56,183 nucleotides of DNA from Deltaproteobacteria bacterium. GTDB taxonomy: Bacteria > Bdellovibrionota > JACOXK01 > 2-02-FULL-40-11. The stretch lies in the NCBI GenBank assembly GCA_016198185.1, contig JACQJD010000080.1, forward strand, positions 1 through 56,183, read 5' to 3'. The position numbers were made by a program, and so were the translations under genes. The notes under the pieces were generated by a model. That model was not told the origin of the DNA. It was given only the letters and a program-made list of their open reading frames with translations, and made no database searches. Positions 4,871 through 51,699 of this stretch are shown here, in pieces. The stretch's first letter is position 1, and each line of letters starts with the position of its first letter.

Positions 4871-4955
4871 CCCATATCTTGAGATCACATCTTCAGGGAG
4901 TTGGAACGATGGCTCTATATCCCCAACCCCTGAAGATGTGATCTCAAGATATGGG
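4871..4955 (+). repeat. Family-1 conserved-loop hairpin, copy 1
   Basis: Inverted repeat CCCATATCTTGAGATCACATCTTCAGGG with perfect 28 bp complement, then GTTGG/CCAAC closing an 18 nt loop AACGATGGCTCTATATCC. Core shared with 51371-51455. Confidence 0.9.
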
Positions 4956-5009: not shown

Positions 5010-5732
5010 GTGCTTAAAAAACGACCACTTTTGTTTTTGGGCATTTGTGTAGGCATTTATTTTTTGAGCTTTCAGGCAATGTCATTGCCTTTGGCTGAAA
5101 AAGAAACGGCCCATCGTTTAAGTTATCATTTCAACCAACTTTATGATCAGGCCAAAAATCAACGCTGGAAGCAATCCGGACTTAATCTCGGCATTGGTGC
5201 ACTCACGGGCGCAGGTGCCGTTGCCACCTATTACTCTGGAAATGAAAAAACCAAACAAGTAGGCGTCCCTGCTCTCGGTATTTTAAGTGGTATTTTTACT
5301 TTCTATGGAGGATATCTTTTCTTTTCCCCCTCTCCATATGAATCTTGGCTTTCAAATTATCGAAATTTATCTGAGATCCGTGATCCAACCCAACGCAAGG
5401 TAAAAGTGCATTTGGCAGAACAGGAACTTAAATCTTTGGCCCTTCGCAAACGCACCGAACGCTTACTTGCGGCCAGCAGTTATACGGCTTCGGGACTTGG
5501 CATCTTGGGATGGTACACCACCCAAAATCAACGGGACTCTCAATCATTCCTGTTATACCAAAGTGTCGTAATGACCATGGCAGGATTATTTCAATTATTT
5601 CAAAAAAATGACGTTGAAACACAATACCGTTCTTACGAGGAGTGGAAAAAGAATCATAGAACGATCGTCCACTCAAACGCCCCTTCCATTTCACTCACGC
5701 CTGAAGGCCTCACCGCTACACTCTTTTTTTAA
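5010..5732 (+). CDS. Hypothetical membrane protein
   Basis: 240 aa ORF, signal/TM segment at N-terminus and several hydrophobic stretches. Confidence 0.65.
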   Translation: MLKKRPLLFLGICVGIYFLSFQAMSLPLAEKETAHRLSYHFNQLYDQAKNQRWKQSGLNLGIGALTGAGAVATYYSGNEKTKQVGVPALGILSGIFTFYGGYLFFSPSPYESWLSNYRNLSEIRDPTQRKVKVHLAEQELKSLALRKRTERLLAASSYTASGLGILGWYTTQNQRDSQSFLLYQSVVMTMAGLFQLFQKNDVETQYRSYEEWKKNHRTIVHSNAPSISLTPEGLTATLFF

Positions 5733-8885: not shown

Positions 8886-8950
8886 GCCCACTCCAGAATC
8901 TTTCTGAGGCGGCATTGTATTTTCGAGCCTCAAAGATATTTTGGAGTAGC
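8886..8950 (-). repeat. Family-2 conserved-loop hairpin, copy C (loop motif reads on minus strand)
   Basis: CCACTCCAGAATCTTTCTGAGGC pairs imperfectly with GCCTCAAAGATATTTTGGAGTAGC; loop plus closing stem GGCGGCATTGTATTTTCGAGCC is the reverse-complement form of 23329-23349. Confidence 0.75.
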
Positions 8951-9793: not shown

Positions 9794-9900
9794 GCAGGCT
9801 GCCGAAAACCGTCATTCTGAGGGCCAAAGGCCCGAAGAATCCCATCGTCTTCGACGATGAGTTCACTTCGTTCAGGATGACGGCATTTTGAACACCCTGC
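9794..9900. repeat. Intergenic inverted-repeat element with GTCATTCTGAG...GAAGAATCCC interior
   Basis: Ends GCAGGCTGCCGAAAACCGTCATTCTGA / TCAGGATGACGGCATTTTGAACACCCTGC are inverted repeats; internal GGGCCaaaGGCCC and CATCGTCttcGACGATG hairpins. Confidence 0.75.
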
Positions 9901-19085: not shown

Positions 19086-19105
19086 GGATCGCCCTTTAAA
19101 ATAAT

Positions 19106-19235
19106 AGGGCTGTTGAAAATGGCCCAGGGACGCCGCACCTGAAGGTGCGCGGCCCCCCCCTGAGGCGTACTTGTGATGAGTACGTTGAGGCAGACACGAC
19201 GAGCGACGTAGATACGGGCTATTTTGAACAGCCCT
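19106..19235. repeat. Intergenic inverted-repeat (MITE/REP-like) element
   Basis: Termini AGGGCTGTTGAAAATGGCCC / GGGCTATTTTGAACAGCCCT; internal CGCACCTgaAGGTGCG and CGTACTtgtgatgAGTACG hairpins; no transposase. Confidence 0.8.
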
Positions 19236-19261
19236 AAAGTTAGCCTTTAAAAAGGCCGAAA

Positions 19262-23289: not shown

Positions 23290-23388
23290 ATTTACAAAGC
23301 TGAGTTTGGCAGCTTGTGATTTCTCTGTGGCTTGAAATGCAATGCCGCCACAGAGAAATCACAAGCTGCCCGACTGCGCTTTGTAAAT
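23290..23388 (+). repeat. Family-2 conserved-loop hairpin, copy A
   Basis: Outer arms ATTTACAAAGC/GCTTTGTAAAT; 24 bp perfect inner stem GGCAGCTTGTGATTTCTCTGTGGC (23308-23331 with 23347-23370); 15 nt loop TTGAAATGCAATGCC. Confidence 0.9.
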
Positions 23389-31993: not shown

Positions 31994-32021
31994 TTGACAT
32001 CTTTGCCTTTATTTGTATAAA
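31994..32021 (+). promoter_or_regulatory. Candidate sigma70 promoter of the HNH-like gene
   Basis: TTGACA-16 nt-TATAAA upstream of the 32101 ORF. Confidence 0.6.
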
Positions 32022-32100
32022 ATTTTGGTAATTCTTATATGTCGAAAATAGGGTTCGGCGTTTCTACAAGTCACCTTAAATGACTTACTAAGGAGGAGAT

Positions 32101-32592
32101 ATGCAAAATAGGGTCGTCGTTGCTATCGTAAAGGCGTGTTTTGTTATTGCCTTTTCTTTAACGGTCACGCTGGCTTTCTCATACCCCTTGATCCCTGATC
32201 CAGAAATCACCCAGGGAGATCTTTGCACAGAAGATAACCCTGATTTTGCAAAGTATCGGTATCAAGAAAACATCCCTTATTGTCAACGTAACGTCAGCAA
32301 AGCCAGACGAGAAAAAATCTATGAAAAATACAATATCCCCTCCCATTGCAGATATCTGTATACGATAGATCATTTTATTCCACTCTCTATTGGCGGTAGC
32401 AATGCGGATCAGAATCTTTGGCCAGAACATGTTTTGGTAAAAGCCACACGGCCAAAGTTAGAAGAGGAGATTTACCTAGCACTGGCACAGGGAGAATTAA
32501 ACCAACAAGAAGCAATCGATATTATTATCAAAGAGAAAACCACAGAGCAACAAAGCCCCCCGGATAATAACAGCAAAGGTGAATGTAACTAA
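32101..32592 (+). CDS. Exported HNH-like nuclease
   Basis: Signal peptide; YTIDHFIPLSIGGSNADQNLWPEH resembles the HNH motif; strong AAGGAGGAG RBS. Confidence 0.75.
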   Translation: MQNRVVVAIVKACFVIAFSLTVTLAFSYPLIPDPEITQGDLCTEDNPDFAKYRYQENIPYCQRNVSKARREKIYEKYNIPSHCRYLYTIDHFIPLSIGGSNADQNLWPEHVLVKATRPKLEEEIYLALAQGELNQQEAIDIIIKEKTTEQQSPPDNNSKGECN

Positions 32593-50981: not shown

Positions 50982-51308
50982 ATGGCTGAAACAACCGTCA
51001 TCAGTGGCGAAATTCAAAAATTAGAAAATTCTAAATTAATTCCTCGAGAATCTTTCAAAGACGTTTCTTTAGAAGAATTGGTTCATACCAAATTAGAAAG
51101 TTTTATTGATCAAATTCAAGGATATGACGTAAACGATCTTTACCCCGTCATTATTGAAAGAGTTGAAAGACCCTTGATTCAACTGGTTTTAAAAAAAACG
51201 CGTGGAAATCAAGTCAAAGCCGCTTCTATTTTAGGGATTAATCGAAACACGCTCAGAAAAAAAATCAACCATCTCAAAATTAAGATCAAAAAGCCTTACG
51301 TAGAATAA
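50982..51308 (+). CDS. Fis-family DNA-binding protein
   Basis: LIQLVLKKTRGNQVKAASILGINRNTLRKKINHLKI, Fis-type HTH. Confidence 0.88.
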   Translation: MAETTVISGEIQKLENSKLIPRESFKDVSLEELVHTKLESFIDQIQGYDVNDLYPVIIERVERPLIQLVLKKTRGNQVKAASILGINRNTLRKKINHLKIKIKKPYVE

Positions 51309-51370
51309 AATAATAAATTTCTTACCTCGCTAGGGATTATTCAAAAAGATAATCCTTAAGTACAGTCTAT

Positions 51371-51455
51371 ACCCATATCGCAGATCTCTCCTTCTAGGAG
51401 TTGGAACGATGGCTCTATATATCCAACCCCAGAAGGAGAGATCTGCGATATGGGT
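51371..51455 (+). repeat. Family-1 conserved-loop hairpin, copy 2
   Basis: ACCCATATCGCAGATCTCTCCTTCT with perfect 25 bp complement; tip GGAGTTGGAACGATGGCTCTATATATCCAACCCC shared with copy 1. Confidence 0.9.
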
Positions 51456-51510
51456 AATAATTGAAAATGCCTTTGGAAGGCTATGTCTATGAGATATTAT
51501 CTTCTTGCCC

Positions 51511-51699
51511 CTATGGGGCTTTATATTTCTGGATAACTTCGCGAAGATAATGCGCAATGGCTTGCCGTAAATCGTCTTCCGTCATGTGCTCTGGAGAGAT
51601 GCCCAACGTTTTTAAAACCGTTTTTAATTCTTGTTCAATCAGTTCCGGGGGAAGACCACTTAATTCAATCACTTTTTTAAAAAGTGCTTTTTGACTCAT
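51511..51699 (-). CDS. Small hypothetical protein
   Basis: 62 aa ORF immediately downstream of pabB-like gene. Confidence 0.5.
   Translation of the reverse strand: MSQKALFKKVIELSGLPPELIEQELKTVLKTLGISPEHMTEDDLRQAIAHYLREVIQKYKAP

Follow-up and report, generated by a model that had tools for sequence, protein, structure and literature searches.

A MITE/REPIN-like palindromic repeat family whose arms probably evolve in concert

REPINs, doublets of REP sequences that form hairpins, are mobilised by RAYT transposases in Pseudomonas and E. coli. Their inner spacer is poorly conserved yet paired, and compensatory changes in it are common (PMC3116915). The hairpin family described here, F1, resembles REPINs in being a short, non-autonomous, multi-copy extragenic palindrome with a compensated variable paired segment. 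The layouts differ, however: REPINs carry conserved 16-mers at the ends and vary in the stem of the inner spacer, whereas in F1 conservation lies at the apical tip and variation in the outer stem. Further, REP sequences and REPINs have conserved ends with a GTAG or CGTC tag at the foot of the hairpin, whereas the best conserved part of the F1 alignment is the tip and not the ends. A search for Y1/RAYT transposases (PF01797, the only transposase family searched) gave no match in the genome, which is 92% complete, and was positive in five control genomes, E. coli among them; an IS200/REP-type transposase was therefore rejected as the partner of F1. Due to the inside-out layout and the lack of a Y1/RAYT gene in this genome, we do not file F1 as a REPIN. 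We also dropped integron attC sites from consideration, since we take the GTTGG...CCAAC order of F1 to be inside-out relative to their R''/R' order.

F1 and a second family, F2, share with MITEs a length of about 145-180 bp, a non-coding, intergenic and lineage-specific nature and a dispersal over unrelated sites. As for MITEs, the orthologous gaps of relatives, between fis and a small ORF, are without the F1 hairpin, and terminal inverted repeats are clear for F2 (GGGCTGTTGAAAAAGGCC, on contigs C89 and C91). The differences are that the terminal repeats of F1 itself are weak or decayed in most copies, that no target duplication was identified at its approximate boundaries and no cognate transposase in the PF01797 search, and that MITEs do not as a rule contain a long internal hairpin with concerted arms. 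Judged by sequence, F1 is thus a putative MITE in the broad sense of the term.

A further point of comparison is quasipalindrome correction. In E. coli it is established that template switching turns imperfect inverted repeats into perfect ones (PMC7202029), and the same mechanism has been proposed as a source of compensated stems (PMC8794818). Quasipalindrome correction predicts perfect and lasting complementarity of the arms, changes to both arms that pass through no wobble intermediate, and indels that are compensated, all of which F1 shows; yet it has usually been described for single reporter loci or rRNA genealogies, whereas here it is inferred from dispersed copies in one genome.

The window, by which we mean the whole stretch of 56,183 nucleotides that was analysed, corresponds to C37, one of the 93 contigs that make up a genome of 1.77 Mb. 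Its hairpins of both families, and the parts and neighbours of the second F1 copy, are as follows.

4871..4955, plus strand: F1 hairpin copy 1, between divergent genes (alkaline-phosphatase family, minus strand; ORF at 5010, plus strand)
8888..8949, minus strand: F2 hairpin, partly decayed
23290..23388, plus strand: F2 hairpin with conserved tip and drifting, compensated stem
50982..51308, plus strand: fis-like gene (HTH_8), upstream neighbour of copy 2
51372..51454, plus strand: F1 hairpin copy 2, with outermost T-A pairs extending to 51370/51456
51380..51398, plus strand: variable left-arm segment of copy 2, GCAGATCTCTCCTTCTAGG
51400..51427, plus strand: conserved tip of copy 2, consisting of the GTTGG stem, the loop AACGATGGCTCTATATAT and CCAAC
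51428..51446, plus strand: variable right-arm segment of copy 2, CCCAGAAGGAGAGATCTGC, with the A-C mismatch 51396/51430
51455..51484, plus strand: right flank of copy 2, TAATAATTGAAAATGCCTTTGGAAGGCTAT, with a CTTTAGAAGGCTAT-like terminal motif at its end
about 51511..51699, minus strand: small ORF of 62 aa, convergent neighbour of copy 2, kept in 5 of 5 same-family genomes examined

Read along the plus strand, copy 2 has the order CCCATATC-GCAGATCTCTCCTTCT-AGG-A-GTTGG-AACGATGGCTCTATAT-AT-CCAAC-CCC-AGAAGGAGAGATCTGC-GATATGGG, in which CCCATATC/GATATGGG form the base, GCAGATCTCTCCTTCT/AGAAGGAGAGATCTGC the mid-stem and GTTGG/CCAAC the tip stem around the loop AACGATGGCTCTATATAT. Its arms (51370-51398 and 51428-51456) are 97% complementary, the A-C pair 51396/51430 being the single mismatch, and those of copy 1 are 100% complementary. 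The terminal motif of the right flank occupies 51470-51484 and matches CTTTAGAAGGCTAT with 2 mismatches. Folded as single-stranded DNA, copy 2 reaches −35.7 kcal/mol (z = −12.3), a value equalled by none of 200 shuffles, and it scores 99.0 bits (E 2.8e-21) against the F1 covariance model, into which it had itself been built. The first-pass annotation had placed the hairpin at 51371-51455; the hairpin is real, but each end is off by one base, and the last stem pairs reach 51370/51456.

Base, tip stem and the loop core AACGATGGCTCTATAT are common to the two copies, whereas the mid-stem differs and is fully compensated. The 16-nt loop core has exactly two matches in the window (4905 and 51405, both on the plus strand) and three in the genome, against a chance expectation in the window of 0.36 matches at up to 3 mismatches. 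Sequence and arm complementarity thus confirm what had been annotated, a second hairpin with the loop core and orientation of the first, and its setting between the convergent fis-like gene (50982-51308, plus) and a small ORF (about 51511-51699, minus) is also correct. We looked for a T-run after the hairpin of copy 2 and found none; a terminator role was rejected on this ground, and the terminator-like sites nearby are separate small hairpins. Elsewhere in the window, a purine riboswitch (Rfam RF00167, 60.5 bits) lies at 32013-32110 on the plus strand, just before an ORF at 32101.

Searches of the genome with relaxed tip patterns gave 14 clear F1 copies, which align almost gap-free, and the F1 covariance model (R1) gave 17 places: C81, C42, C37 (two), C7 (two), C54, C35, C93, C51, C30, C55, C18, C63, C58, C31 and C72 (decayed). 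The model search scored 150 of the 434 candidates from a first look, so this count may lack a few weak copies. Several of the copies have decayed stems (C58, C63, C72). Beyond this genome, the model was run on seven others of the class without a match, the tip pattern (≤3 mismatches) was absent from 58 relatives, and searches of phages, plasmids and viral contigs found nothing, so that F1 has been found so far only in this bacterium. One locus in the contig collection (L022) has the F1 tip pattern but no flanking hairpin; it is coding-like, presumably FeoB-like, and we discarded it as a chance match.

One pair of copies, C7a and C35, was dispersed recently: they show 96% identity over 145 bp, beyond which similarity stops abruptly and the flanks are unrelated. 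At copy 2, the neighbourhood of fis, the small ORF and pab is kept in same-family genomes, yet none of the five (G001-G005) has an F1-like long hairpin in the gap between fis and the small ORF, which in G002-G005 is no longer than a few tens of bases and here, with F1, measures about 200 bp. Because these syntenic gaps are without the hairpin, F1 behaves as a lineage-specific insertion. The same gap holds a GGCTGTTCAAAA-like fragment in G004 and, downstream of fis in G001 (L182, G001:C116), a different palindromic insertion, GTAACTACTCAGG...GAGTAGTTAC; small palindromic elements seem to have landed in this gap more than once. F1 copies are mostly intergenic. The gaps that hold them may be divergent, convergent or co-directional, and the copies show no clear preference for either orientation; between co-directional genes, 5 of 7 copies have the orientation of the gene.

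Most of the strongest long inverted repeats in 548 kb of the genome belong to F1 or F2. The F2 tip, GAGGC-TCGAAATGCAATGCC-GCCTC, is conserved while its stem drifts, and the family shows covariation as in F1, with near-perfect pairing across 52 distinct copies. A covariance model found F2 at about 60 places in the genome, two of them in the window. Full-length F2 elements (e.g. on C89 and C91) measure about 165-180 bp and have the terminal inverted repeats GGGCTGTTGAAAAAGGCC at both ends. F1 and F2 are adjacent on C51, C58 and also on C35, where an interrupted F2 hairpin stands beside the F1 hairpin and both lie between paired ACTTTAGAAGTCTAT ends; it is only in this F1 copy that paired terminal motifs are clear.

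Several further observations concern these linked repeats. At C35:6985-7380 (L044), F2 and F1 are enclosed by an inverted repeat that is perfect over about 31 bp and reaches past the element ends, and the F2 loop contains a further inverted-repeat insert; the predicted shape of the whole is a three-way junction. A tandem pair of F2 hairpins, 111 bp apart and with different stems, occurs at C44:1353-1536 on the minus strand (L085). The same F2 hairpin is found at three contig ends (L124, start of C48; L125, end of C52; L126, start of C68), which suggests a longer repeat that breaks the assembly. A third family, F3, consists of 121-bp repeats with GGGCTGTTGAAAAAGGC ends and is present both here and in G001, G004 and G005; its terminal motif is as in F2, but it is common to several genera and its inner sequence is unrelated to F1 or F2. 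In the window, an element with TAGGGCTGTTGAAAATGGCCC/GGGCTATTTTGAACAGCCCTA ends lies at 19105-19236, just upstream of lon, and its ends are related to F2 and to F3, the 121-bp family common to other genera of the class. A dispersed repeat, GTCATTCTGAGG...GAAGAATCCCRTCGTCTT, occurs at 59-99 and 9811-9851 of the window with 88% identity, and a similar repeat abuts the F1 copy C7a.

The first-pass annotation had read the conserved base, variable middle and conserved tip as a barcode-like layout, with the middle segments as candidate target addresses. In such a barcode or guide array, every stem segment would be a meaningful address matched to a target. The intact copies do all differ in their stems while having base and tip in common, and among the 12 best-paired copies no two stems are alike; identical stems, which according to the first-pass annotation would have refuted a variable segment, are thus not what the family shows. 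Yet all F1 stems derive by drift from a single consensus, CCCATCTCTCAGATCTCTTCTACAGGG, to which C81 corresponds almost exactly and from which the left arms of the 12 best copies diverge by 28% on average. Nor do they vary more than their surroundings: divergence per site between pairs of copies is about 0.25 in the stem, 0.14 in the tip and 0.33 in the flanks, all of them rough values, the last because flanks outside the element saturate. The tip is thus conserved, about half as divergent as stem and flanks, and the stem is not hypervariable.

Matches to possible targets are also lacking. F1 stem 14-mers have no match in 548 kb of the genome (0.85 for shuffles), the stem of copy 2 has no other match in the genome at ≤2 mismatches, and the phage, plasmid and viral-contig searches were empty for the stems as well. 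F2 stems gave 14 exact 14-mer matches where 1.4 were expected, which we take to be unmasked F2 remnants. The conserved tip and co-varying stems of the first-pass description are therefore borne out and its barcode is not: the F1 stems are variants of one consensus that reflect drift and not a code, and we reject the barcode reading, which is almost certainly wrong.

The pairing itself is far stronger than this drift would leave it. In the 12 best F1 copies, 316 of 324 stem cells (97.5%) are Watson-Crick pairs, whereas arms that diverged independently to the observed extent would have 56%, with a maximum of 66% in 2000 simulations. Covariation exceeded all 500 shuffles and every slid register, with 57 doubly changed cells against 14.2 in shuffles, so the earlier claim that the middle segment is altered on both arms together holds across the family. 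Even one-base indels are compensated: C7a, C35 and C37a have an extra G/C pair at mirrored positions. The stems of C7a and C35 differ by one fully compensated pair; between those of C93 and C51 there is a compensated transversion, C-G to A-T.

Strong covariation together with a conserved tip is the classic signature of a structured RNA, here a small RNA or an mRNA-stabilising hairpin, whose copies would be transcribed, whose loop would be bound or functional and whose stem would be kept paired by selection on the RNA through compensatory mutations. The gene orientation of 5 of the 7 co-directional F1 copies is also in its favor. In stems kept at the RNA level, G-U pairs are expected to be common and to exceed A-C on the functional strand, and double changes of the transversion type have no wobble intermediate. 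The best F1 copies have G-U pairs in 2 of 324 cells, however, and A-C is as frequent as G-T; the counts of G-T versus A-C are 23 versus 28 in F1 and F2 together, a test that rests on 51 cells, and 14 versus 10 relative to the strand of the co-directional gene.

Comparison of nearest-neighbour copies, which do not amount to a proper phylogeny, yielded 190 double changes against 54 one-sided ones, and copies that differ at one or two pairs mostly show complete pair replacements. Of the double changes, 116 were of the transversion type, more than half, and 74 of the transition type; in rRNA, 61% of instantaneous compensated changes are of the transition type (PMC8794818). The missing wobble excess and the majority of transversions argue against slow compensation at the RNA level and for templated copying of the arms. 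We noticed no spacer inversions, which would also be expected from intermolecular template switching. Other observations against a structured RNA are that no promoter-like site was found upstream of copy 2, that Rfam gave nothing above threshold for F1, only sub-threshold matches to generic miRNA hairpins, that copies occur in divergent gaps as well, and that the syntenic gap of same-family relatives is without the hairpin. We consider a structured RNA unlikely; the complementarity of the arms appears to be kept at the level of DNA.

Selection could also act on DNA directly, if a nucleoid- or cruciform-binding protein needed the tip on a long hairpin at every copy, as in a fixed site with a REP-like role in supercoiling. 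This would agree with the conserved tip, the long and stable DNA hairpin (z −12.3) and the intergenic position of most copies. Compensation in two steps would, however, leave many half-compensated states, in disagreement with the 190 double and 54 single changes, and the decayed stems of C58, C63 and C72 indicate that not every copy is maintained. A fixed binding site is thus quite improbable as the full explanation, though selection for cruciform binding could add to templated copying or partly replace it.

The reading we favor, with a probability of roughly two in three, is that F1 is a species-specific, non-autonomous MITE/REPIN-like palindromic repeat, about 145 bp long with its flanks, whose arms evolve in concert by copying at the DNA level. 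The palindrome would extrude as a hairpin, either when the DNA is replicated or when the element itself is mobilised, and a polymerase would take one arm as the template for the other, by template switching as in quasipalindrome correction. A mutation in one arm would thereby be either erased or written into both. Conservation of the tip may mean that the mobilising machinery or a DNA-binding protein recognises this part and not the stem sequence. A related and doubtful possibility is that the hairpin templates itself: F1 would move as single-stranded DNA in folded form, with the conserved tip as the recognition site, and each move would rebuild one arm from the other, so that new copies would start out perfect and their arms would then drift, as in an inside-out REPIN with a non-RAYT enzyme.

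Compensated stem changes are routinely taken to prove that an RNA is functional. The covariation of the two repeat families in this genome is of the textbook kind (0 of 500 shuffles); wobble pairs are not preferred and double changes are mostly of the transversion type, as would be expected if one arm were copied from the other at the DNA level. F1 and F2 may offer natural material for testing how often covariation is created by template switching and not by selection, and they call for caution in RNA discovery in genomes rich in palindromic repeats.
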